34,139 bases of DNA from Chitinophagaceae bacterium (GTDB lineage Bacteria > Bacteroidota > Bacteroidia > Chitinophagales > Chitinophagaceae): positions 1 to 34,139 of the forward strand of contig CANFLL010000045.1 of NCBI GenBank assembly GCA_947447825.1. Reading direction: 5' to 3'. A program made the position numbers and the translations under genes. The notes beneath the pieces are model-generated. The model saw only the letters and a program-made list of their open reading frames with translations, made no database searches and was not told the DNA's origin. Within the stretch, counting starts at the first letter, position 1, and every line of letters starts with the position of its first letter. Shown one piece after another: positions 6,122 to 19,629 of the stretch.

Positions 6122-6205
6122 GCCCAGATGGCGGAATTGGTAGACGCAGCAGACTCAAAATCTGCCGTTCGCAAGGATGTGCAGGTTCGATTCCTGTTCT
6201 GGGCA
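6122..6205 (+). tRNA. tRNA-Leu (anticodon CAA)
   Basis: An 84-nt class II tRNA. The acceptor stem GCCCAGA/TCTGGGC pairs fully and is followed by discriminator A at 6205, with CCA not encoded. The anticodon stem is GCAGA/TCTGC with loop CTCAAAA, giving anticodon CAA for UUG codons. The variable arm lies between TCTGC and GTGCAGG, and the T-arm carries GGTTCGATTCC. Its 3' end is the integration target of the adjacent island, and the insertion has restored the complete gene. Confidence 0.95.
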
Positions 6206-6211
6206 CATAAC
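6193..6211 (+). other. attL (19-bp core in tRNA-Leu 3' end)
   Basis: CCTGTTCTGGGCACATAAC spans the 3' strand of the T-arm and acceptor stem and is repeated exactly at 19168-19186. Bases on both outer sides differ between the copies, which defines the 19-bp identity block. Confidence 0.9.
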
Positions 6212-6631: not shown

Positions 6632-8350
6632 CTATTTAATCTTCACAAAATCAACTCCGACTCTGGCGGGATGACCAAAAGCATGATTTGCAATTCTTTG
6701 GGCATAATCATTTCGTAAAGTTGTCACGTATTGAACATCAAAGTAATTTAGTTTTTGTTCAAATTCTTCTTTAGTAAATTTATTAGTGATATCCCAAATT
6801 CTTATTTTATTATCACTAAGCTTATTATTTTCAACATTATAAACTTTGGGCTTTATGTAGAAAGGTTTGTATAAAAATCTGTTCAATACTTCTTGATTAT
6901 GAACCAATTTAGCTATTTGACTTTTTTGCAAATCGACGTCTTTTTTTAACTTTTGGAGGTCTTCTGAATTTGATAGAAATATTTCTTTGATTTTGGTCAG
7001 CTCAGGTTTTTCTATATCGCCCCAGTAAACAGCTTTAAGATTTGGTAAGAAATTTAAAAAAGCTGTATCACCCAATTTTAAAGCTAACTCAATGTCAGAA
7101 AATTCCGTCCCTTTTACAAAATAAAAATTGTGTTCAATTTTATTAGGGTAATAACAATCACACAAAGCAGTTATACATAAATAGTATTCATCCCCTGAAC
7201 CTTTAAAAATATCTCCAAAGTTTAAGTTTGGCACATTATCTGGATTCAAGCCCTTTACAGAAACAGCATTATAAAAAACATTTAGCTGAAACAAATCTTT
7301 ATTGCTTGGTGTTTTTATTTTTAATTCTTCGCTTTTATAATCCAGAAAATCTGGTTTTAATAATTCGAGTTTAGCCGTTCTAAATTTTAAGGCTGCCTGT
7401 TCTATTAGTAACTTCTTTATAATAATTCCAAATGTTTTATCGTCATTAATATGATTTCTAAACTGAAATAAAGCTTCTGTTGAAGATTTAAGAATAGTTT
7501 CATCAATAAATCGTTCATTTGAATTAAAAACGGTTTGCATCTCCAATCCTAATAATTGGAAGAAACTACCATCATTTTTTATCAAAACATCAGAAATTCT
7601 TCTTAAAAGGTTATTATAATCTGCATCTCCGACCAGATCTTTACTTAAAGTAAGAACAAAAGTATTATTGATAATAAAGGAATTATCTCCAACATTGAAA
7701 ACGTCAAAATCATCAACTGCTTGTTCAGGTATAATAAATTTTTCAATATTTAATGAAATGTATATATATCGTAGAATTAACTCTACTGATTTATCTCTCA
7801 ACTTTTCTATTGGGAAACTGTTTGTTTCGATAGAGTTATTCTCAAGAAAGTTATCACTACGATTGCTCCAAAAATCGAGAATTTCTTGAGATTCTATATA
7901 TTCATATTTAGTTTTTATTCTTTCAAAATCTTCTTTAATTAATCCCGAAAAATAAGCATCTAAAAAAAGAGGAATATTAGAAAAATTAGACGTGCTGGAA
8001 TAAATACAGCAAAAATTTATGTAGGGAGTACTTATAGCTTTGTTAAGTAGTTTTAAAGAATATTCTTGACCATTCATCTCGGCTAATTCCCAATCTAAAA
8101 GTATCAAATCTCTTCCTTTAAATAAATAATCCAAAATTTTAGAATTATCAAGGTTAGATATTTCAAACTTATGAACTGCTAAACTTTTTCCATTTTCTTT
8201 AAATGTATTGAATAATTTTACAGATAAAATTTCTTCAGGAATATGACTATCGGCTATAGTTTCAGAATAAAAATCCTTAGCTTTTTCATCAATAAATATT
8301 GCAGAAGTAATCGATGAGTTTAATATATCAAATGCTTTTTGGTTATACAT
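6632..8350 (-). CDS. Receiver-domain protein with large uncharacterised C-terminal region
   Basis: A 572-aa protein, last in the operon, starting 3 bases after the GHKL gene's stop. Residues about 15-140 look like a phospho-receiver domain: SAIFIDE (D21, E22 acidic pocket), LILLDWELAEMNG with candidate phospho-acceptor D86, IYSSTS at the end of strand 4 (switch Ser/Thr 118-120) and SGLIKE (K139). Residues about 150-480 are mixed alpha/beta with no domain I recognise. A short coiled-coil-like stretch (about 470-500) precedes a distinctive C-terminal tail RIANHAFGHPARVGVDFVK. There is no DNA-binding HTH and no nuclease motif. Operon position suggests it receives phosphate from the kinase-like C-terminus of its neighbour. 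The receiver call is fairly safe; the output is unknown. Confidence 0.7.
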   Translation of the reverse strand: MYNQKAFDILNSSITSAIFIDEKAKDFYSETIADSHIPEEILSVKLFNTFKENGKSLAVHKFEISNLDNSKILDYLFKGRDLILLDWELAEMNGQEYSLKLLNKAISTPYINFCCIYSSTSNFSNIPLFLDAYFSGLIKEDFERIKTKYEYIESQEILDFWSNRSDNFLENNSIETNSFPIEKLRDKSVELILRYIYISLNIEKFIIPEQAVDDFDVFNVGDNSFIINNTFVLTLSKDLVGDADYNNLLRRISDVLIKNDGSFFQLLGLEMQTVFNSNERFIDETILKSSTEALFQFRNHINDDKTFGIIIKKLLIEQAALKFRTAKLELLKPDFLDYKSEELKIKTPSNKDLFQLNVFYNAVSVKGLNPDNVPNLNFGDIFKGSGDEYYLCITALCDCYYPNKIEHNFYFVKGTEFSDIELALKLGDTAFLNFLPNLKAVYWGDIEKPELTKIKEIFLSNSEDLQKLKKDVDLQKSQIAKLVHNQEVLNRFLYKPFYIKPKVYNVENNKLSDNKIRIWDITNKFTKEEFEQKLNYFDVQYVTTLRNDYAQRIANHAFGHPARVGVDFVKIK

Positions 8351-8353
8351 TCC

Positions 8354-11251
8354 TTATAGTTTTGTTGTTTGATTAATAACGAAGCAAGCTCCATTTAAAG
8401 AATTATATTTTTTATCATTAGTGGCATATATATTTAAGTTGGCTTCATTTAAGCTTTGCTTTGACAAATACAATCCGATACCTCTCCCATTGGGACGTTG
8501 AGAGTAAAATAATTCGAAAATTCTATCAAGTCTGTAATCAGGTATTTTTTCACCTGAATTTTCAATAATTATTTCATTAGTATCAATCCAATAATCAAGT
8601 TTTATAATACGATGCTCTTTATTTCGCATCCAATAAAAAGCATTATTTATGATATTAATAAATACTGTATGGATTACAGGCTCCTTAATTCTTAAAGAAT
8701 GTTTTTTAAAATCATCCGATACAACAAAATTTATATCATTGTCTGAAATTTGATTTTCAAAAAAATCTAATAAATAATTATAAATTGCTTCGCAAGAAAT
8801 ATCCTTTAGCATTGCTCCCGAAATTCTATATAAAGGGGACAATAATGCATATTTATCTTCTAATTGCTTAAAGTTCCTTTCAAGAAATGCAAATTCTTTA
8901 ATAGATTTAATTATAGAATTATTGCTCAAAATACCTAATTGATTGTTTATTTTTGCATACAATTGGTTAAACTCATGGTCAATAATTTCAACTGCAATCC
9001 CTAATTGAGCAGTATCTCGAGTTTGTTCCCACTGATACTTCATTTGATCATATTGTGCTTTGTATGCTCCCTGAACCTGTTCTTCATCAATATCGAAAGA
9101 CAAACGTGTAATATGTTCTACCAAAGGGAACAATGTTTTTCCTGCTTCTTCAGTGAGATTATTATACTGTTTCTCAATTTCATCAGTAAATTGATTTACA
9201 AGTTCTTTTGAAATAATACTGTTGATTATTTTTTCCTTATTTTCAGTAAGAGAATTTACTAACCTTTTTGCTCTTTCTTTATAATCTTTTATTAAAGAAT
9301 AAAACTTAGCATCAAGTTGATGCTTGTTCTCATTGAGTGATTTTTCTAAAGAAGAAATATAGCTATTATACCTTTTGGTAAAATCAATTTTTAAATCACG
9401 AATCTCTAACTTATCTTGAGCCTTCTTGTTTAATTCTTCTTTTCTGGGAGTAACAAGCTCTATGTAACTATTTAAGCGATCTTCAAATTTATATAACCGT
9501 TCTTTTTGTGTTTCCGTAGGTTTGTATCTCTTAGGGACTTTAGGAATTAAACCTTTTAATTCAAGATCCATTTGTTGTAATTCATCTAACACATCTTCAA
9601 CTTCTGAATATGTAATGTTGATATTTTCAAGTTTATCATTTAAAAGATTAAGTAAATGTTCATATTTAATCTGATGTTCATCCAATCTTTGAGGATAGCT
9701 ATTCAATGATTTGGTAAATGCAATTTTTTCAGCTTTCTCTCTAGCTTTATCTGCCTGTAAAGCCTCATTTTGTTCATTAATTTGTTTCTTTTTATCAAGG
9801 AAAAGGGATTCTTTTGCTTCAGTTCCAAAATAATCCTGTGCCAATGTTATAAAAAAACCAATAATATCACTTGTAAAAGCCCGATACTGTGTATTATTAA
9901 TTAATCCTTCTCGACTTGATTTATCAATTAATTTAGGGTTTTTTTCTCTTTCTAACCCTAAATAGCCAAACATTCTCCTATATGAAAAGTAGTATGTCCC
10001 AGCCCTTCTTGACCTTCTTTGTTCAAAATTTAAAAAATCAGCATTGTGTCTTCCATATGGCAATACCCTAAATTCATCCCGATAAATATATAGCCCTCCA
10101 TATAGGGTAGTTTTTGCTTTTAAATTGGCATATTGTTGCTCCGTAAGTAGAGATGATTTTTCTTCGCCTTGAGAGTATCCCAATTCAATTGGAATTTCGC
10201 CATAAAAAGATGTTGAATTCCTTTTCCTCGGGTTTAAATAATCATAATCAATAACCTGATCATAAATCCTGATTTTCCCTTTAAAATTTCCTTTCCCATC
10301 AAACTTTCCTTCAATAAACACATCTGCTTGTTCAAAATCTTTTTTTGTAAAAAAATTACCAGTTGAAGTTAATAAGTCATACGCTTCAGATTCAGTATAT
10401 ATATTTATAACTGTAGAAATGTCAATAATTTTTTCTTTGAAAGGATTTGTAAAACCAGACAAACTAGTTATCACAAACATTTTTTCATCTATTCCATCAT
10501 TATCTTTTTCAGATAATTCCAAAATTTGTGGTAACGGATTAAAAATTAAGAATAAAGTTCCGTGAGAATCATTTGAATTGAAAAAAGTAATTACATTTTG
10601 AAGGATTGGTTCTTCTAAGACAGCATTTGTTGTTTCTAAAATAATATCAGATTTCAGTTCTATCTGTTTTCCTTCCCAAATTAGCTTATCATCTAAATCT
10701 GTTTCTTTATCAAAATTTGATATAAAATCTTCTTTCAAATCTGAGAAAACCCCATTTAAGTTATTTAAATTATCAATGGTTTTTAAAGGGATAATAATAT
10801 CATCTAAGAATAAATTATAATTTTCTAATAATCGCCAATCAAAATATAAACCTTGCAAAGGATAGCCCATTTTCTTGGTCAACATAAGCATGGGATTTCC
10901 CAAATAAGCAACAGAAAGCCGACCTATTCCTTTTTCTCCTGCCTTAATACGAGGTCGTTTCCATAAAGTGTCTTCTGATTCCAAATCTAAATCTGCTCTT
11001 GATTTCGAATCGGTACCAAGGACTAACCATTTGTCTATAATATCAGAATTAGACATTCCTTTTCCATCGTCGGAAATTACAAAATAAGAGTTGACCAATC
11101 CATCATACCCTTTTTTATATAAATCTGCTCTTAAATTATCTGCATAGGCATCGTATCCATTCTTCCATAATTCTGTAATGGCTGTAGGTAAATCGGCAAT
11201 TTGACCCTTGCCTAGTAAATCTACGGCTCTAGCCTTTGTTCTAAACTGCAT
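8354..11251 (-). CDS. Dual ATPase: N-terminal MORC/Hsp90-like GHKL plus C-terminal histidine-kinase core
   Basis: A 965-aa cytosolic protein with two Bergerat-fold sites. The N-terminal site has ELWKNGYDA (E27, N31, D34), VISDDGKGM (D61-M66) and AGEKGIGRLS (104-113). A transducer-like region follows, with the motif KLIDKSSREGLINN near 440-453, typical of MORC-type ATPases. Residues about 485-700 are charged coiled coil. Residues 751-775 contain an H-box-like segment (EIIDHEFNQL, H759). The C-terminal HATPase (about 855-960) has N box INIINNAF, ENSGEKI (N replaces the usual D) and GRGIGLYLSK. Its start overlaps the methyltransferase gene by 11 bases. It probably couples ATP-driven DNA or ligand sensing to phosphotransfer onto the receiver protein downstream. 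That role is inferred; the domain calls are seen in the sequence. Confidence 0.8.
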   Translation of the reverse strand: MQFRTKARAVDLLGKGQIADLPTAITELWKNGYDAYADNLRADLYKKGYDGLVNSYFVISDDGKGMSNSDIIDKWLVLGTDSKSRADLDLESEDTLWKRPRIKAGEKGIGRLSVAYLGNPMLMLTKKMGYPLQGLYFDWRLLENYNLFLDDIIIPLKTIDNLNNLNGVFSDLKEDFISNFDKETDLDDKLIWEGKQIELKSDIILETTNAVLEEPILQNVITFFNSNDSHGTLFLIFNPLPQILELSEKDNDGIDEKMFVITSLSGFTNPFKEKIIDISTVINIYTESEAYDLLTSTGNFFTKKDFEQADVFIEGKFDGKGNFKGKIRIYDQVIDYDYLNPRKRNSTSFYGEIPIELGYSQGEEKSSLLTEQQYANLKAKTTLYGGLYIYRDEFRVLPYGRHNADFLNFEQRRSRRAGTYYFSYRRMFGYLGLEREKNPKLIDKSSREGLINNTQYRAFTSDIIGFFITLAQDYFGTEAKESLFLDKKKQINEQNEALQADKAREKAEKIAFTKSLNSYPQRLDEHQIKYEHLLNLLNDKLENINITYSEVEDVLDELQQMDLELKGLIPKVPKRYKPTETQKERLYKFEDRLNSYIELVTPRKEELNKKAQDKLEIRDLKIDFTKRYNSYISSLEKSLNENKHQLDAKFYSLIKDYKERAKRLVNSLTENKEKIINSIISKELVNQFTDEIEKQYNNLTEEAGKTLFPLVEHITRLSFDIDEEQVQGAYKAQYDQMKYQWEQTRDTAQLGIAVEIIDHEFNQLYAKINNQLGILSNNSIIKSIKEFAFLERNFKQLEDKYALLSPLYRISGAMLKDISCEAIYNYLLDFFENQISDNDINFVVSDDFKKHSLRIKEPVIHTVFINIINNAFYWMRNKEHRIIKLDYWIDTNEIIIENSGEKIPDYRLDRIFELFYSQRPNGRGIGLYLSKQSLNEANLNIYATNDKKYNSLNGACFVINQTTKL

Positions 11252-12329
11252 TATTATGATTTTGAATTATTGCTTTGCCAATAGCTGTGGCATATTTTGG
11301 TGGTACTGCATTACCAATCATTCTTGCGGCATTGGCTATGCTTGTTGCCTTGAAAACATAATCTGTGGGGAAAGACTGTAAAACCGCACCTTCTCTTAAT
11401 GAAATGGCTCTATCTTCTTCTGGATGTCCAAATCTCCCATTTGATAAACTATAAAATTTTGTCGTAATTGTTGGAGATGGTTTATCCCACCACATTCTGC
11501 CGTAAACATCTTTAAAACCATCGGTTTTCCCCTTATGGCATTTAGGTGCTAATTCGGCATTGTTAACATACGCTAATCTTGTGCCTCCGTCCTTTGGTGT
11601 AATGGCAAGCCTATCTAAATTAATTTTTTGCAATCCAGCAACAATATGTAAAAAATCACTTTCATCCTTATTCCCATGCAAGACTTTTGGAAACCCATTA
11701 TGTTCGCCAATACTATCTCTAACTGTAACTTTTTTCCCTTTTGCTGTGAGAGGTATTATCTCATGTAAAGTAGTACGATTAGCTATCAATGTAAATCTTT
11801 TTCTGTGTTGCGGAACACCATATTCGCTTACTTCATGTACATCAAAATGAACCTTATATTCATTACTTTGTAGCCAATAAATAAACTCATCCAATCCACT
11901 TTCTTCTTTTTTCCGCAATACACCCGGCACATTTTCAACGACTACATATCCAGGGTTAAAATACTCTACAAACCGCATGAATTCTTTTAATAAATTCTTT
12001 GATTTTGTAGATTTTGTTTTATCAGTATTAATAATGCTCCAAAACTGGCAAGGGCTACAACCAATTAAAATAAGTTGGTCATCATTTTTATTTAAAGCCA
12101 GTTTTTCTTCTAATTCTTTTTCTTTTAAATCAAAAACATCAACGTGAATAAATTCTGCATTTTTGATATTTGCTTCATAAGTAGCTTTACAATTTATATC
12201 AAAATCAATCCCTGCAAGAATTTTTATTCCTGCTTCCTGCATACCATAGCTCATGCCCCCTCCAGAACAAAAAAAATCTACTGCTTTAAGTTTATTTTGA
12301 TACGGTGTATTTTTCTTTCTTTCTTTCAT
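11241..12329 (-). CDS. DNA (cytosine-5) methyltransferase
   Basis: A 362-aa SAM-dependent C5-cytosine methyltransferase with all core motifs: I (DFFCSGGGMSYGM, 18-30), IV (GCSPCQFWS with catalytic C94), VI (VVENVPG, E122), VIII (QHRKR, 174-178), a target-recognition region of about 200-290, and X (ARMIGNAVPP, about 345-354). The motif IV wording CSPCQFWS differs from the common PPCQGFS but keeps the PCQ core. It is the first gene of a three-gene operon (overlap of 11 bases with the GHKL gene). No partner endonuclease adjoins it. It would modify cytosines in a short motif that cannot be read from the sequence. The start is the ATG at 12329, after which basic residues lead into motif I. Confidence 0.93.
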   Translation of the reverse strand: MKERKKNTPYQNKLKAVDFFCSGGGMSYGMQEAGIKILAGIDFDINCKATYEANIKNAEFIHVDVFDLKEKELEEKLALNKNDDQLILIGCSPCQFWSIINTDKTKSTKSKNLLKEFMRFVEYFNPGYVVVENVPGVLRKKEESGLDEFIYWLQSNEYKVHFDVHEVSEYGVPQHRKRFTLIANRTTLHEIIPLTAKGKKVTVRDSIGEHNGFPKVLHGNKDESDFLHIVAGLQKINLDRLAITPKDGGTRLAYVNNAELAPKCHKGKTDGFKDVYGRMWWDKPSPTITTKFYSLSNGRFGHPEEDRAISLREGAVLQSFPTDYVFKATSIANAARMIGNAVPPKYATAIGKAIIQNHNNAV

Positions 12330-12728: not shown

Positions 12729-13109
12729 TCATGGCAGTGATTTTAATTCTTCTTGCTTGAAAGGTTCTCTATTGGACTTAATAAACGGCTCTATGAAGCT
12801 GTAAATGCTATTTGCGAAGGTTTCCGCATCCTTTTTCCATATGGTAAAACTTAAACAAGTGCTGCTTCCGGTACAATTAAATTGGTTTGAAGGCAAGCTA
12901 CTTAATTTTGCATAGTCATAGTATAGTTTTGCTAATTTATTAGAAGGATCAGCTAGTAGTTCATAGTTTTGTAACATTGGAAAAGCATCAAAACTGACTA
13001 CAGAAAACTTGATTTTATTTTTAATACATACATAAGGTATTTGTTTCTTTAAGCATATATCCCACCACATATTATTTTCAATTTTATCAAAATTTACAAA
13101 CCTTTTCAT
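12729..13109 (-). CDS. Island hypothetical protein
   Basis: Unrecognised protein of 126 aa from the ATG at 13109. A 30-residue upstream extension to 13199 is rich in F, I and T and looks like translated promoter DNA, so the shorter form is preferred. It begins MKRFVNFDKIENNMWWDICLKK, has three cysteines (one in VCIKNK, two in NCTGSSTC) and ends with a charged helix-like tail. There is no signal peptide and no family I know. It is leftward like the operon but 400 bp away from it. It could be a small regulator or cargo protein; function unknown. Confidence 0.5.
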   Translation of the reverse strand: MKRFVNFDKIENNMWWDICLKKQIPYVCIKNKIKFSVVSFDAFPMLQNYELLADPSNKLAKLYYDYAKLSSLPSNQFNCTGSSTCLSFTIWKKDAETFANSIYSFIEPFIKSNREPFKQEELKSLP

Positions 13110-13406
13110 AGTTGAAGTTATTACTATAAATTTAGTATAAATAATTTGATAAACAGTGATTTTAATAGGAATATTATTAAAAAATATCAGACAGAACATG
13201 TACCCTTTATATTCGTTATTCCATTTCTAGTTATTTGTGTAAAGTTGCTTGCATTGATACCTTACAAGCATAATTAAGTATGAGATTGGCATTATAATAT
13301 GCTTGTGATTTTTTAGAATATAGTACTTTCAATATGGAAACAAATTGCCATCGCAAAGTTTCTATCTAATAAAGTAAGTGAAGTCTAAAATAAGGGAACC
13401 CCTCAT

Positions 13407-13658
13407 TTACTTATTTTCAATTATTGGCTTTTCTGGAAAAAAATCTTTAGGTGAAACTTCTAATTCTACTGCTAAGGTATTAATGTGATTGAAGTTATAT
13501 TTAGCTGGATGATTTTGGCTTTCTATCTGACCAATAAACCCTCTTGAGGTATCTAACATTGATGCAATATCCTCCTGTGAAAATCCTTTTTCAATTCGAA
13601 TTTCCTTGATTTTATCAATCACAAACTGCTCTATTCTACTTTTTTTATTCTTAGTCAT
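13407..13658 (-). CDS. XRE-family HTH regulator
   Basis: An 83-aa protein with a Cro/C1-type helix-turn-helix over residues about 15-70: IRIEKGFSQEDIASMLDTSRGFIGQIE, then NFNHINTLAVELEVSPKDFF, the usual five-helix layout. The start is the ATG at 13658 (MTKNKKSRIEQ). A longer reading to 13853 would overlap the divergent gene and has noncoding character. Small XRE proteins of this kind often repress their own promoter and a divergent gene. The spacer to the divergent secreted-protein gene holds a perfect inverted repeat at 13701-13716 that could be its operator. Its place on the island suggests control of cargo or of island maintenance. Confidence 0.85.
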   Translation of the reverse strand: MTKNKKSRIEQFVIDKIKEIRIEKGFSQEDIASMLDTSRGFIGQIESQNHPAKYNFNHINTLAVELEVSPKDFFPEKPIIENK

Positions 13659-13700
13659 AAATAAGCAGATGTAAGTAGCTAAAATCCCACTACCTTTATG

Positions 13701-13716
13701 CTTAGTAATAACTAAG
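13701..13716. promoter_or_regulatory. Candidate operator between divergent genes
   Basis: CTTAGT-AATA-ACTAAG is a perfect 6-bp inverted repeat ending four bases before the ATG at 13720, within the 61-bp gap between the XRE gene and the secreted-protein gene. TACCTTTA at 13691-13698 resembles a -7 box. The symmetry fits a dimeric HTH regulator. Confidence 0.45.
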
Positions 13717-13719
13717 AAT

Positions 13720-14823
13720 ATGTATAAAACACTTGCTTTCTTCCTTCTTTTTTTTGTTTTTACTGGAATTACCAATGCCCAAAATGAAACTGTAAGACAG
13801 TTTTGGAAAAGTGTTAGTATCGAATATAACTTAAATGAAATGGATGCTAGCACGAAAGCGATACTATATAATCTAGCTCAACGACAAACAAATAGCTATA
13901 CCAAAACCTTAGCATTACTAGAAAACATTGATAATAACCCTTCATTTCAAGACTATATGTTTTTAGAAATATATACTACTCTTTCCGACAGGGAGTTTAT
14001 GAGGATGGTTCTAGGTAATATGTGCGGTAGTTATTCTTTGGGAAATAAAATAGGAAATTATATTCTTAATAAATATGTAAATGACCCGAGAGCCATAAAG
14101 AAAATTAGAATAAAACATGAATTGGAAGTTGCCCAAAAGAATGCTGAATTAGAGGAGCAAAAGAAAAATGAAGCTGAAGCTATTGAATCCTATAAGACAA
14201 AAATATTTTCTTTAAACGAGTTGGATCAAGACATAAATCCTAAAAATATTGAGGAAGTAAGAAAAATGTTGGATTTGCAAATTATTAAATATTTGGATAG
14301 TGGAAAACTAAAACAATATGATGATTATGACAGAGGGCGTATTTTTGGATTTTATCCCACTGCCGCAATTGTAGACAGTAACGGCAATACAACATTTACA
14401 CAATGGGATGACAAATATTGTTTCGGGTTTGAAAATAACGAAAATGAAATACTATTTACTGATATTTTAAGTACATTCTCTTATATAAAATTTGATATTC
14501 CGAAACATAAAGGGTATTCTGTAAAATGTGAATATATGCTTCCGATTAATAGAGCTTATTCTACTCGCCAACAAGAATTCAAAATCCTTGAAGATGGAAG
14601 TATTTTAACAGTAGAAGGCAATATGAAAAGGAAAATAGACAAAGAAAATCTAGTATATAAACCCATTATAGATACATTGAGTACTTTAAAAGAAAAGGGT
14701 ACTTATCAAATAGAATTTCTCATGTGTGGTACTGATTATCAAAAAAGCTATGACGAAAGCTCTTATTGGAGACCATTAAAAATATTAAAAATTTATAACG
14801 TTATCTTGGTTCCCAAACAATAA
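13720..14823 (+). CDS. Secreted/periplasmic hypothetical protein on the island
   Basis: A 367-aa protein with a clear signal peptide (MYKTLAFFLLFFVFTGITNAQ, cleavage after A20 or thereabouts). Residues about 125-165 form a charged coiled-coil-like segment (HELEVAQKNAELEEQKKNEAEA). The C-terminal half (about 200-365) is rich in aromatic and beta-type patterns (RGRIFGFYPTAAIVDSNGN, QWDDKYCFGFENN) and may be a beta-sandwich. No family was recognised. It is the only gene of the island interior read rightward and is divergent from the XRE regulator. It may be a cell-envelope cargo protein; no role can be assigned. Confidence 0.6.
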   Translation: MYKTLAFFLLFFVFTGITNAQNETVRQFWKSVSIEYNLNEMDASTKAILYNLAQRQTNSYTKTLALLENIDNNPSFQDYMFLEIYTTLSDREFMRMVLGNMCGSYSLGNKIGNYILNKYVNDPRAIKKIRIKHELEVAQKNAELEEQKKNEAEAIESYKTKIFSLNELDQDINPKNIEEVRKMLDLQIIKYLDSGKLKQYDDYDRGRIFGFYPTAAIVDSNGNTTFTQWDDKYCFGFENNENEILFTDILSTFSYIKFDIPKHKGYSVKCEYMLPINRAYSTRQQEFKILEDGSILTVEGNMKRKIDKENLVYKPIIDTLSTLKEKGTYQIEFLMCGTDYQKSYDESSYWRPLKILKIYNVILVPKQ

Positions 14824-15225: not shown

Positions 15226-17559
15226 CTATAATTTCATTCCGTATTTCTTGGCAATCAAATAAATCGTACCTATGCCATATCCATTTTTATATGGGGCATT
15301 TAATAGACAACTCTTATACTGTTTATGAGCCTCTTTATAATTATATTTTGGATGAAACTGGCTTAGTTGGATATAATAATTGAACCCTTCCTCACCGTAA
15401 GTATTTGCCAAAGCACAGCCAATCGCAAACCAATCGCAATACTCACAAGTAATATCAATTTCTTGGTCCTGAATTGACAATATCAAACTCAAAATGTCAT
15501 GAATAGAGTTATCTGACACTTCAATTTTTGTTGGCTGTATTGGCAATATTGAATCAAATAATACTACCTCGTGCGCAATATATTTGCTTGGATCTTCGCT
15601 TACAAATCTTAATCGTGTTATATCCCGACAAGATTTGTCAATAGAAATGCCCAACTCTTCAAAAGCAAAATGCAAAGCATCGAAATAAGCCTCATGCTTA
15701 CTCGTGTCTTTAATTGGAATTAACAGAAAATACCCTTCCCCACCAATGGATTTGGAGCATACTGCTATATTGATAATTTTAGAAAACTCTTCGTGCAGAG
15801 TATTAAAATTACCTATTCGCTCATTATCTTTCTTGTCTATATCAATACAAATGAAGCCACTATGTTTAAGTAGTTTTTCCTTCTTTCTTTTACCGTCAAA
15901 CGTACCACTTGCAGTAAAAGCAAATGCTTGTTTTTTGAGTCCATCCCTTTTGGTTTTGTCATGGCACATTCTTATCTCTTCAACTTGTTCTTTAAAAGTA
16001 TAATCTTTATTTATCAATTGGTAAAGAGTGAATTGTTCCCCAACATCTGATTTTGCATTTTCAAAAAAACTAACCTCTGCGTTTTTAAGTAATGCTTTTG
16101 TCGAAATTGGATTCTCCATATTGGGTGTTTCCGTTTCTGGAAACGGAAACGATGCCCTTTTTGGGTTTAGCCATTTATGTATTGTGCCACTTTTATTAGG
16201 ATTTCCTAGAACAACTTCTGCTATCTTTCTAAATGAAAGACCTGTATCGAAAAGTCTTTTGCATTCATTTTTCAAAGCATTTCTTTTATTAGATTTAGTG
16301 GTTGCCTCAAATTGAATATTTACTGAATTAATTACATTTTTATTTTGACTTTTATAATTAAAATCAAGCAATTTTAAGTGATTTTTTAAAGTATCTGCGA
16401 TGGAAAGAGCTGTATCAAAATCTTCATCCGAGCAAACTAAGACCTGATTTTCAAAATTTTGGGTGGAGTAGATTCTTGCATAAGTCAATAACATTGCTAT
16501 TCGTACTGTGCTTAATGCTAACCTATGGATATTGGCTTCCAACATTCTATCTATTGATTCAATAAAATCAGTTTTCAGATGAGAAAAAAACTGCATAAAT
16601 ACCTCCCTTTGCTTAGAGGATAAAGCAAATGATATTTTATCTTTTTTACTATCAACTAATGCTATATCTAAAAAAGTATTTCCTAGTTCTTCGATAGAAT
16701 CTAAGAGTTTGCCATTATTGCTTTCAGCAAAAACGTCTTCAAATAAGTGATTCCCTTTAATATGGTAATATATAAATCGAGAAAATAGACCATCCTCATA
16801 AGATGGTAATAATTTAAAGCATTGATTTAGGGTAGAGGTCATAAATACGCTTAAAAAAACTTTATCTATTTCAATTGGTTCTTCCAAATAGTTTCTGCCT
16901 ACTGAATATGCTTCACCATGAAACCCTATTCTCAAAATATCTGAAAATTGTCCAAAATCACTCCTGTTTGCAGAAGAGAGTGTGTCAGTTTCTGTTAGAT
17001 AAAAAAGCCCATAGCCACCATTGGAATTTAAGTCACTGGAAAGAGAAGCCTTGGTAATATTGCTTGTCAAAAAAAGTTTATTCCAATTTATATCTTTCGT
17101 AATAGGTTTAATTCTCGGTTCATTTGCCGATTTTGAATCCTTAAATTTTCGTTTTTCTTTGTCTCTAAGGTATTTGTGTAGTTTAACTCCAACTTCTCTA
17201 AATTGGGCTGCAAATCCTTTGCCATTTCCAGCATTACCCAATACATAACTATATAGTTGACAACCTTCTTGCTTGCCATCATATTTGGTTTCGTAATTTC
17301 TAAGTATTCCGCTAAATATTGTTAAAATACTTAATAAGGCAATATCCTTTTTTTGAGGGTCTTGGATAAGCCCTAATATTGGCTTGAAAATTTGCGGGAG
17401 ATTATCATATATCACAGGGTTAAAGATTAATAAATTATCATCAAACATTATCTCACCTTGAGACTTTTTTATTATTGTGTTTAAATCCGTGCCTTCATTA
17501 ATCAAGAAATTCTTCATATCTGTTTTTAATTTTATTGTTTTAGTTCCCATTAATCTCAT
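15226..17559 (-). CDS. DUF3987-type helicase-like and primase-like replication protein
   Basis: A 777-aa replication protein typical of Bacteroidota islands. Residues about 40-400 resemble the DUF3987 (YfjI-like) ATPase, with a Walker-A-like loop GNAGNGKG (108-115). Residues about 425-465 look like a small HTH (FRKIAEVVLGNPNKSGTIHKWL). Residues about 505-665 match the BT4734/VirE-N primase-like domain, with acidic pair ICIDID (D573, D575), SIGGEGYFLLIPI and SCRDITRLRFVSEDP. The end (about 705-765) looks like a PriCT_2 domain (DWFAIGCALANTYGEEGF). In relatives I know, the primase-like part usually comes first; here it follows the ATPase. The start overlaps the upstream HTH gene. A second ATG at 17550 is also possible. 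It likely drives island DNA replication after excision. Confidence 0.75.
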   Translation of the reverse strand: MRLMGTKTIKLKTDMKNFLINEGTDLNTIIKKSQGEIMFDDNLLIFNPVIYDNLPQIFKPILGLIQDPQKKDIALLSILTIFSGILRNYETKYDGKQEGCQLYSYVLGNAGNGKGFAAQFREVGVKLHKYLRDKEKRKFKDSKSANEPRIKPITKDINWNKLFLTSNITKASLSSDLNSNGGYGLFYLTETDTLSSANRSDFGQFSDILRIGFHGEAYSVGRNYLEEPIEIDKVFLSVFMTSTLNQCFKLLPSYEDGLFSRFIYYHIKGNHLFEDVFAESNNGKLLDSIEELGNTFLDIALVDSKKDKISFALSSKQREVFMQFFSHLKTDFIESIDRMLEANIHRLALSTVRIAMLLTYARIYSTQNFENQVLVCSDEDFDTALSIADTLKNHLKLLDFNYKSQNKNVINSVNIQFEATTKSNKRNALKNECKRLFDTGLSFRKIAEVVLGNPNKSGTIHKWLNPKRASFPFPETETPNMENPISTKALLKNAEVSFFENAKSDVGEQFTLYQLINKDYTFKEQVEEIRMCHDKTKRDGLKKQAFAFTASGTFDGKRKKEKLLKHSGFICIDIDKKDNERIGNFNTLHEEFSKIINIAVCSKSIGGEGYFLLIPIKDTSKHEAYFDALHFAFEELGISIDKSCRDITRLRFVSEDPSKYIAHEVVLFDSILPIQPTKIEVSDNSIHDILSLILSIQDQEIDITCEYCDWFAIGCALANTYGEEGFNYYIQLSQFHPKYNYKEAHKQYKSCLLNAPYKNGYGIGTIYLIAKKYGMKL

Positions 17560-17905: not shown

Positions 17906-18949
17906 TTACATAACTGGAAGTTTATTAATTGCATTTTTTGTCATTTCTTCAACTTTATGGATATACCTTTTTGTATGTGCTGGACTTGAATGTCCCATAC
18001 AGTGCATGACTTCAAGTATATCAGCTTTATAAACAACTAAATTGGTCGCTAGTGAATGTCGCCCACAATGCCATGTTATTTTTTTATTTATTCCAGATTT
18101 ATAAACCCAATTTTTAAGCACCTTATTACAGCCATTTAGGGTAGTTGGTAATTTAAACACTAAATCAAGCTCATTGCCCCTATTACCCAATAAACTAAAG
18201 GCATTAATGTGAATAGAATTAGAAATGCTTTTTTTTGTTTTGGATTGAACCAATGAAAATGTATCGTTTTGTATATTTTTCCATTTTAGACGTGAAACGT
18301 CACAGTATCTTAAACCTGTGTAACAACAAAATAAAAAAGCACGTTTGACATCCTCGTTACTACAATCGCTTTGAAATAATATTTTTATCTCTTCCATTGT
18401 AAGCGTTTCTTTGTCAATACCCTCCATTTTTTTTATCTTGATATCAGATATTGGGTTAACTTGAAAGAGTCCTTCTTTGGTTGCTTGCTTAATGACCCTT
18501 CCCAACAGTTTAAAATAGTTGTGTGGTGTTTCACCTGTTAAATTGCTTTCTAAATGCTTCTTGAACCTCAAAAGGAGGTCTTCATTTATTGCTGTAATTG
18601 GCAAATCAGGTTTTTTTATAAAATTAAGAAGCTGATTTAGTACCGCATTGGCTCTTCTTTCCTTAGTAGGGTTTTTAATAAAATGTTGGTTATAAAATTT
18701 AATAAAGTCTATCTTATTACGATTAACTGGTAATGTGCTAATGCCATTTAGCAATTGACGTTGCTTTTCACATCTTAGTATTTCAAAGCGAATTAAATTT
18801 TCTTTATTTAATTGTTTTGTTTTGTCATCTTTTTCTGGGTACAAATGTAAACCAGTGGATTCTTGAATCCTTTTGGTTCCAGTATTATAATCTAAATACA
18901 GGGCAATACTTCCTTTTTGAGGACGATTTCTTCTTTTTACATTAATCAT
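17906..18949 (-). CDS. Tyrosine-type site-specific integrase
   Basis: A 347-aa integrase of the phage-integrase/Bacteroidota conjugative-element type. The N-terminal arm-binding part begins MINVKRRNRPQKGSIALYLD and is followed by the SAM-like core-binding domain (about 80-165). The catalytic domain carries R214 (YTGLRYCDVSRLKW), a lysine in QSKTKK, H294 and R297 (WHCGRHSLA), H320 (MGHSS) and nucleophile Y329 (TKRYIH), so it looks intact. The start at 18949 is preferred over 19012, which adds a hydrophobic lead unlike this family. The gene is 219 bp from attR and reads away from it. It should recombine the tRNA-Leu 3' end. Confidence 0.93.
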   Translation of the reverse strand: MINVKRRNRPQKGSIALYLDYNTGTKRIQESTGLHLYPEKDDKTKQLNKENLIRFEILRCEKQRQLLNGISTLPVNRNKIDFIKFYNQHFIKNPTKERRANAVLNQLLNFIKKPDLPITAINEDLLLRFKKHLESNLTGETPHNYFKLLGRVIKQATKEGLFQVNPISDIKIKKMEGIDKETLTMEEIKILFQSDCSNEDVKRAFLFCCYTGLRYCDVSRLKWKNIQNDTFSLVQSKTKKSISNSIHINAFSLLGNRGNELDLVFKLPTTLNGCNKVLKNWVYKSGINKKITWHCGRHSLATNLVVYKADILEVMHCMGHSSPAHTKRYIHKVEEMTKNAINKLPVM

Positions 18950-19167
18950 AATTTTTTTATTTTCATTGATAAATTCCCTGTTAATAACGAGGATGAGAAA
19001 AAAAAACATCAAAAAAATTAATAAAAAACAAAAGAATTACCGTACCCGAAAATGTACCCATTTTTATATAAACTACTATAAAATAAAGTAAAGAAGAATA
19101 AAACGGAGTTCAATCTAAACAAAGTGTTAAAGAGTTTTTATACTAGGGTTTTGTTCCTTAATTTGTG
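18950..19167. promoter_or_regulatory. Integrase upstream region with a possible arm-type site
   Basis: The spacer between the integrase and attR contains GAAAATGTACCCA at 19048-19060. CAAAATGTACCCA occurs in the same orientation about 60 bases inside attL (6271-6283), and a GTACCC half-copy lies at 19042-19047. Repeats near both ends are candidates for integrase arm sites. No gene is present. Confidence 0.4.
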
Positions 19168-19186
19168 CCTGTTCTGGGCACATAAC
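19168..19186 (+). other. attR (19-bp core)
   Basis: Exact copy of CCTGTTCTGGGCACATAAC found in the tRNA-Leu 3' end. It marks the right border of the island, and sequence beyond it is the original chromosomal flank of the tRNA. Confidence 0.9.
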
Positions 19187-19209
19187 CCGCTTTAAAAGCG
19201 GGTTTTTTT
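19184..19209 (+). terminator. Original tRNA-Leu terminator, displaced by the island
   Basis: AACCCGC (19184-19190) and GCGGGTT (19198-19204), with extra TTT/AAA pairing inside, are followed by TTTTTTT (19203-19209). It overlaps the last bases of attR, as expected if it stood directly after tRNA-Leu before integration. The stretch 19210-19629 beyond it holds no recognised gene. Confidence 0.85.
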
Positions 19210-19629
19210 ATGCTCGTTATTTGTGTTTTTTGTCTCAATTAAAGTTGATTTTGTCAGACAAAAAAGGTGAATATTCCGACAAAAAAGATTCCATAACTCT
19301 ATCCATATTAAATAATAAAACTAAAAAAGCATCATTATTCATGTAGCCTTAAAAGTTGTCATGAATAAACTAAAAATCCATACTTTTCAGAGCTAGATTC
19401 AGGTACAGTTGCCCTACCAATGCGCTGATGAATTAAAAATTTTAAGCTAATTATTTCAGTAAGCAGTCTAATCTAAATCATACATAAATGCCACCCAAAA
19501 AGCACAACCTAAACTAACTATGTATGTTTTTGGCCTTGTATTATAGATAGATTGACGTTTTTTTTATTAGTAAACTCATAGAGCAAATGTTCGGTAAAAG
19601 TGTGTTATGAGACCATAGTAAAAAATGGG

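Follow-up and report, generated by a model that had tools for sequence, protein, structure and literature searches.

What does a DNA methyltransferase do when it is encoded side by side with a histidine kinase and a phospho-receiver? This question is raised by a 34,139-nt stretch of DNA (the window) from a Chitinophagaceae bacterium, in which ORF calling places three leftward genes, for a C5 DNA methylase (362 aa), an ATPase-kinase (965 aa) and a receiver (572 aa):

11241..12329, minus strand: C5-cytosine DNA methyltransferase (Pfam PF00145, E 8e-51; PCQ with Cys94, EN(V/I) string)
8354..11251, minus strand: ATPase-kinase, with a MORC-like GHKL ATPase half, a long helical middle and a HEF_HK plus HATPase_c half (Pfam, Foldseek, motif table)
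6632..8350, minus strand: Response_reg_2 receiver with an uncharacterised output half (Pfam, alignments)

The methylase and kinase frames overlap by 11 nt (11241-11251), and 3 nt (8351-8353) separate the kinase gene from the receiver gene, exactly as given in a first-pass annotation of the window, which took the three genes to be one unit. The gene set is not new, having been described in 2021 by Bellieny-Rabelo et al. (PMC8011034), who defined the domains HEF_HK (PF19191) and Response_reg_2 (PF19192). According to the accessible text of that paper, the family is widespread, with the receiver gene linked to a GHKL gene in 91.6% of cases over 644 regions from 628 strains; C5 methylases and type II restriction-modification (R-M) genes are enriched nearby, Vsr and HNH genes are among the neighbors, and the pair is proposed to be a soluble two-component-like system derived from paraMORCs. 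Our analysis indicates that the trio is probably a system that tells own from foreign DNA.

Co-occurrence was assessed in 395 genomes drawn from the phylum. Response_reg_2 was matched in 17 genomes at E <= 0.001, nine of which (the window's genome included) exceeded the curated cut-off, and HEF_HK was matched in 15, of which 11 exceeded theirs. All nine above-cutoff receiver genomes fall within these 11, and the order methylase-kinase-receiver is seen at every one of their nine receiver loci. Gene order was read at the above-cutoff loci; the other matches comprise nine below-cutoff receiver matches in eight genomes, weak kinase matches in G353 and G249, a second weak one in G392, and four genomes with solely below-cutoff kinase matches. 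The 11-nt methylase/kinase overlap recurs identically in 8 of the 13 loci measured, window included. Given this overlap and the conserved gene order, the association cannot be attributed to chance.

A named genome collection yielded nine loci, five of them with a complete trio in the same order (one of these, L025, is the same as L035 of the 395-genome set). In L027, kinase and receiver are followed by a diverged methylase downstream on the opposite strand. Niabella hibiscisoli has two trio copies on two contigs (L024, L026), each broken by several frameshifts that could stem from either sequencing error or decay; the receiver is followed at 2 nt by an HNH gene, and a Vsr gene is close by. L023 (9604-11725) retains a full-length receiver and a 131-aa kinase remnant, with no methylase match in the fetched stretch, and is a decayed locus.

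In predicted viral contigs, 13 loci were reached with an alignment of the kinase, and 12 of them hold all three genes: nine run methylase-kinase-receiver (the receiver being split in L060) and three have the methylase after the pair, the remaining locus being a fragment. Five receivers at these loci lacked a BLAST label and were recognized as Response_reg_2 by Pfam. Independent occurrence of the three families, which the first-pass annotation had named as evidence against its proposal, is thus not what we see, either in the nine receiver loci or in the viral set. A scan of the viral contigs with receiver alignment A1 gave no match; this negative means little, since it missed receivers to which the kinase alignment later led. 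The window's receiver as query found nothing in plasmids or phages, and the kinase had no hit among phage records at E 1e-10. The PHROG family phrog_8137 matches kinase residues 388-963 (E 1e-80), and 22 plasmid records match the kinase, two of them over at least 80% of the query. Fifteen Campylobacter plasmid records (H6-H20) carry a "(sensor) histidine kinase" that matches kinase residues 1-456 only, at 26-27% identity, and is possibly a related MORC-like protein from a different system. The one plasmid locus inspected, found with another receiver as query (L056, 7659-9762, Pseudomonas syringae), holds two short pieces of this family, an ATP-binding remnant and a receiver gene, beside an IS5 transposase gene; it is another decayed copy.

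Motifs and trees were compared across 25 loci, a set that omits L023 (no methylase, kinase remnant), L024 and L026 (frameshifts), L035 (= L025), L060 (near-identical to L059, receiver split) and L069 (fragment). The kinase protein had been called two-headed, and its Pfam domains, all above cut-off, are in order HATPase_c_3 (23-142), HEF_HK (PF19191; 749-811, E 2e-18) and HATPase_c (858-947). A model of the 965-aa chain (pLDDT 69, pTM 0.38, i.e. of moderate confidence) agrees with this description in matching both MORC and histidine-kinase folds. Among the 50 PDB matches listed by Foldseek, the ATPase modules of MORC2, MORC3 and MORC4 have E values of 2e-8 to 2e-7 (TM-score by target 0.33-0.40); many histidine-kinase cores are also present, and one Hsp90 (E 5e-7) ranks below the MORCs. 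Because Hsp90 matches too, the similarity is to modules of the GHKL plus S5 type, MORCs being the top-ranked, and the earlier label "MORC-like" is borne out in this sense.

The ATP motifs of the MORC half (E27, N31, D61-x-G63-x-G65 and G(E/Q)KG(I/V)GR) are intact in all 25 loci, across three deep groups. The phospho-His and its Glu are likewise kept in 25/25, and H759 is invariant in all 14 rows of kinase alignment A2. The G1 box of the kinase half has Asn, not the usual Asp, in 15 of the 25 loci (all ten of the window's group and five others), and kinase activity is therefore not certain. A dead kinase was considered on this ground and is kept as a candidate reading. Asn-type G1 boxes occur in active AgrC-type kinases.

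The 572-aa protein matches Response_reg_2 (PF19192) over residues 13-156 (E 5e-22; 79.3 bits, cut-off 27), which confirms its naming as a phospho-receiver. Its relay residues are the acid pair D21 and E22, the phospho-Asp D86, S118 and the probable beta-5 Lys K237. D86 is invariant in 15/15 rows of alignment A1 and, together with D21, in 18/18 rows of alignment A3; the His-Asp pair on which the annotation had based its relay (H759, D86) is thus in place. K237 is aligned to Lys in all nine A3 rows that belong to the window's group or to the long group. In the nine rows of the third group, the aligner places other residues in this column, and our reading by eye suggests that a neighboring strand ends in a Lys. 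The short Pfam match had raised the idea that the receiver lacks its beta-5 Lys and is dead; this was rejected, as A3 puts a Lys after an insertion.

Beyond Response_reg_2, Pfam gives just one sub-threshold match, to DUF16. The output half nevertheless follows an overall pattern G...C-x4-C-D...R, with G379, C392, C397, D398 and R563 invariant in 18/18 A3 rows and the C-x4-C-D string (C392-x4-C397-D398) found in 25/25 loci. A profile of this half detected no relative among solved structures (best E 0.33). Of the traits still unexplained, a conserved output core lacking known relatives tells the most about the system. The first-pass annotation would have yielded to a structure search that revealed a standard restriction endonuclease in the 572-aa protein. 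A hidden enzyme of this kind is not supported, as Pfam, PADLOC, NCBIfam and PDB sequences gave no match beyond the receiver (PADLOC 2.0.0, 0 families). The best 50 of 554 Foldseek matches mix receiver-type folds with unrelated ones; the top match has E 0.034 and none reaches E <= 0.001, although the fold test is not a strong one because the receiver model is weak (pLDDT 73, pTM 0.49).

For the methylase, the C5 assignment made earlier is secure, with residue 94 as the Cys of PCQ; the PCQ and EN(V/I) strings are present in all 25 trio methylases. Its PADLOC 2.0.0 matches are to generic methylase models, among them the ones for Druantia and DISARM. The source genome (G000) has eleven C5-methylase matches, the trio's own counted, two of them within one 787-aa frame and one with an internal stop, so such methylases are common there. 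The 25 loci fall into three groups, with 10, 5 and 10 members, that the kinase tree and the receiver tree have in common. In the tree of the methylases these groups are broken: the methylases of L033, L059, L065 and L067 join the window's group, and that of L027 falls outside it. Because the receiver tree has several long branches, which the program flags, and because some forks have weak support, the trees favor but do not prove a stable signaling pair with an exchangeable methylase.

The trio is cargo of a ∼13-kb integrative element in a tRNA-Leu gene, with a 19-bp repeat at both ends:

6122..6206, plus strand: tRNA-Leu(CAA), the integration target and sole tRNA found (ARAGORN)
6193..6211, plus strand: left 19-bp direct repeat, CCTGTTCTGGGCACATAAC, the 3' end of the tRNA (repeat search)
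12729-13199: element ORF directly upstream of the methylase, no match above curated cut-off
13407..13853, minus strand: HTH_19 regulator upstream of the trio (Pfam, E 6e-9); the ORF as listed probably exceeds the true gene length
13720-14823: element ORF, no match above curated cut-off
15226..17559, minus strand: DUF3987 / BT4734-like / PriCT_2 protein (Pfam), by our reading of primase-helicase type
17906..19012, minus strand: tyrosine recombinase/integrase (Pfam PF00589, E 4e-20)
19168..19186, plus strand: right copy of the 19-bp repeat, CCTGTTCTGGGCACATAAC, then a terminator-like hairpin (repeat search)

Between the repeat copies lie the trio, the HTH gene, the two ORFs without assignment, the primase-helicase type protein and the integrase. 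The repeat and the integrase sustain the earlier placement of the trio on a mobile tRNA island. We compared 38 other genomes around the source genome, 12 of the same genus, scoring at most seven candidates per genome. Some DNA match to the 13.2-kb query was seen in 34, mainly to the tRNA stretch, and the longest match within the element spans 376 query bases. In one of seven congener stretches (L071), a 145-bp alignment at 94% identity crosses the joined junction, its right-flank portion being ∼26 bases long and terminator-like; the other six alignments end at the repeat. Four longer congener stretches (L078-L081) retain left-flank genes (a single one in L079, three in each of the others), and neither an element ORF of at least 140 aa nor a right-flank gene was found in them. 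It is hence chiefly the repeat and the integrase that argue for precise integration. A terminator-like hairpin with a T run (19187-19210) directly follows the right repeat and resembles the post-tRNA sequence of L071; the element seems to have parted the tRNA from its terminator. A gene for a YhcG-type PD-(D/E)XK nuclease (PF06250, 21068-22084) lies outside the element, on its right side.

Conserved neighborhoods on mobile islands, as the first-pass annotation envisaged, are seen in part. The trio is present in 12 of the 13 predicted viral loci. No tRNA was found in the 16 relatives' loci scanned, and relatives of the window's integrase turned up in L059, L060 and L068 only, so the tRNA island is not established as a rule for other genomic copies.

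We assign a probability of roughly 0.5 to the reading that the trio is a mobile, R-M-like self/non-self system whose kinase protein senses the state of DNA and, in response, phosphorylates the receiver; such a system would probably act against phage. The C5 methylase, judged by its catalytic motif strings, would mark resident DNA at target sites. The MORC-like half, a module of the MORC/MutL kind, could form an ATP-driven dimer clamp that closes on DNA and reads foreign or unmodified molecules. The clamp would then switch the C-terminal kinase half, leading to phosphorylation of H759 and transfer of the phosphate to D86 of the 572-aa protein, steps to which the conserved residues point. Phosphorylation may free the C-x4-C-D output half to act alone or to recruit a nuclease, with the Vsr and HNH genes beside some relatives serving as putative optional helpers.

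This reading is supported by the trio's constant order at the nine above-cutoff receiver loci of the 395 genomes and its presence in 12/13 viral loci, by the published linkage and frequent C5 methylases (as far as the accessible text of PMC8011034 goes), by the recurrent overlap and by carriage on an integrative element. The intact ATP motifs, phospho-His and Glu in 25/25, D21 and D86 in 18/18, and the MORC and kinase folds also favor it, as does the agreement of kinase and receiver trees against the methylase tree, which would make the methylase an exchangeable specificity module on a stable signaling pair. Counted against it are the G1-box Asn, an output half without recognized fold, the lack of a PADLOC model for kinase (only ZorA, E 0.77) or receiver, and the absence of Vsr and HNH_2 from the genome. 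Our literature searches, with subscription papers and bioRxiv mostly outside their scope, found neither a phage assay nor biochemistry for the trio, and the family was first noticed as Pectobacterium genes up-regulated in potato tubers under stress, not phage (PMC8011034, accessible text). We only tentatively entertain a more specific version, a nuclease-free, methylation-licensed phosphorelay immunity in which the clamp senses unmodified DNA, the kinase phosphorylates the receiver, the methylase is an exchangeable cartridge and the C-x4-C-D half is a new effector, perhaps an enzyme or a DNA-acting domain. If the mechanism is true, bacteria would link recognition of their own DNA to two-component phosphotransfer of the classical kind, and the sensor head would be a prokaryotic MORC-like module. 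A MORC-kinase fusion would thereby gain a function, and a new effector domain with few invariant residues would come to light.

Whether a nuclease takes part bears on an explanation along the lines of Iyer et al. 2008, in which the ATPase clamp would loop DNA to serve a nuclease, be it Vsr, HNH or an enzyme in trans, and the phosphorelay would be secondary or vestigial. The MORC-type fold of the kinase model, the G1-box Asn in 15/25 kinases and the association of paraMORCs with R-M in the accessible text of PMC2292703 all fit, and Vsr or HNH relatives are present in the fetched stretch of 10 of the 25 trio loci (L020, L021, L025, L027 at ∼6 kb, L030, L033, L058, L059, L063 and L065). HNH genes closely follow the receiver gene in L030 (3 nt away) and L033 (41 nt away), spacing that suggests a function shared with the trio where HNH is present. 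However, the stretches fetched for the other 15 loci, the window among them, yielded no Vsr/HNH relative, with flanks short in some (one side of L019, the opposite side of L061 and L064), and the phospho-His and receiver Asp are retained throughout, making this explanation unlikely in our view. Thus, of the earlier remark that a missing nuclease is unusual, the absence at the window locus stands, and the rarity does not, as such loci are no exception in the family. Eight ORFs of the element scanned by Pfam (small ORFs excluded) contain no nuclease domain, and a search of the source genome for Vsr and HNH_2 found neither anywhere, which speaks against a nuclease in trans from these two families. 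The cognate restriction endonuclease gene that defines type II R-M was likewise not found at the window locus. Nuclease families beyond Vsr/HNH were sought in selected neighbors; L020 has a PDDEXK_4 gene 3 kb away. In L025 (11733-13549), a DUF6602 gene and an HNH_2 gene face the receiver gene, and DUF6602 may be another accessory.

The trio could instead be a cytoplasmic two-component regulator, with a kinase that senses a cellular cue such as nucleotide pools and a receiver that controls expression, including that of the methylase or the element, with no direct role in restriction. The presence of the His-Asp residues fits such a regulator, and control of R-M systems and NTP sensing are what the accessible text of PMC8011034 suggests. 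Yet no DNA-binding domain is listed for the 15 A1 receivers or the six further receivers scanned, and an effector unit better accounts for the tight linkage to a methylase that genomes and predicted prophages show; we consider a regulator improbable, though worth keeping in mind. Still less probable is a selfish maintenance module, whereby loss of the methylase would free the kinase-receiver pair against unmodified host DNA, so that the element cannot be lost. Mobile carriage is consistent with this idea, and R-M addiction in general is cited in the accessible text of PMC8011034, but L023 keeps a full-length receiver without a methylase match in its fetched stretch, albeit one that might be harmless without its kinase. 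On balance, the trio is a coherent system of a described family, and defense through a relay ranks as the most likely reading.

How does the trio compare with known systems? Detocs, a kinase/receiver/effector gene set, also employs a histidine kinase and a response regulator in anti-phage defense; it is not known to have a methylase or a MORC head. Among the anti-phage systems of PADLOC 2.0.0, the trio matches no system-specific protein. The Shedu variant VcSduA, shown to be anti-phage, similarly joins a GHKL ATPase to an effector, but there the nuclease is fused to the ATPase, and the accessible text of PMC12137116 describes no methylase or phosphorelay. With the MORC/paraMORC R-M loci of Iyer, Abhiman and Aravind (PMC2292703, accessible text), the trio shares a methylase neighbor, a mobile context and, at the N-terminus, a GHKL module joined to an S5-like one, here with its ATP motifs intact; it differs in adding a C-terminal histidine kinase and a receiver partner, and no helicase or classical restriction enzyme was found at it. 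The closest counterpart is the HEF_HK/Response_reg_2 system as presented in the accessible text of PMC8011034. The window has both domains above the Pfam cut-offs, adjacent genes, the relay residues, the HATPase_c_3, HEF_HK and HATPase_c order of the group-1 architecture, and a C5 methylase directly upstream. Nothing essential differs; the window copy lacks a recognized nuclease neighbor and resides on a tRNA-Leu integrative element. What the present analysis adds to this system is the deep grouping shared by kinase and receiver as opposed to the methylase, the conserved pattern of the output half, and the optional nature of the Vsr/HNH neighbor.
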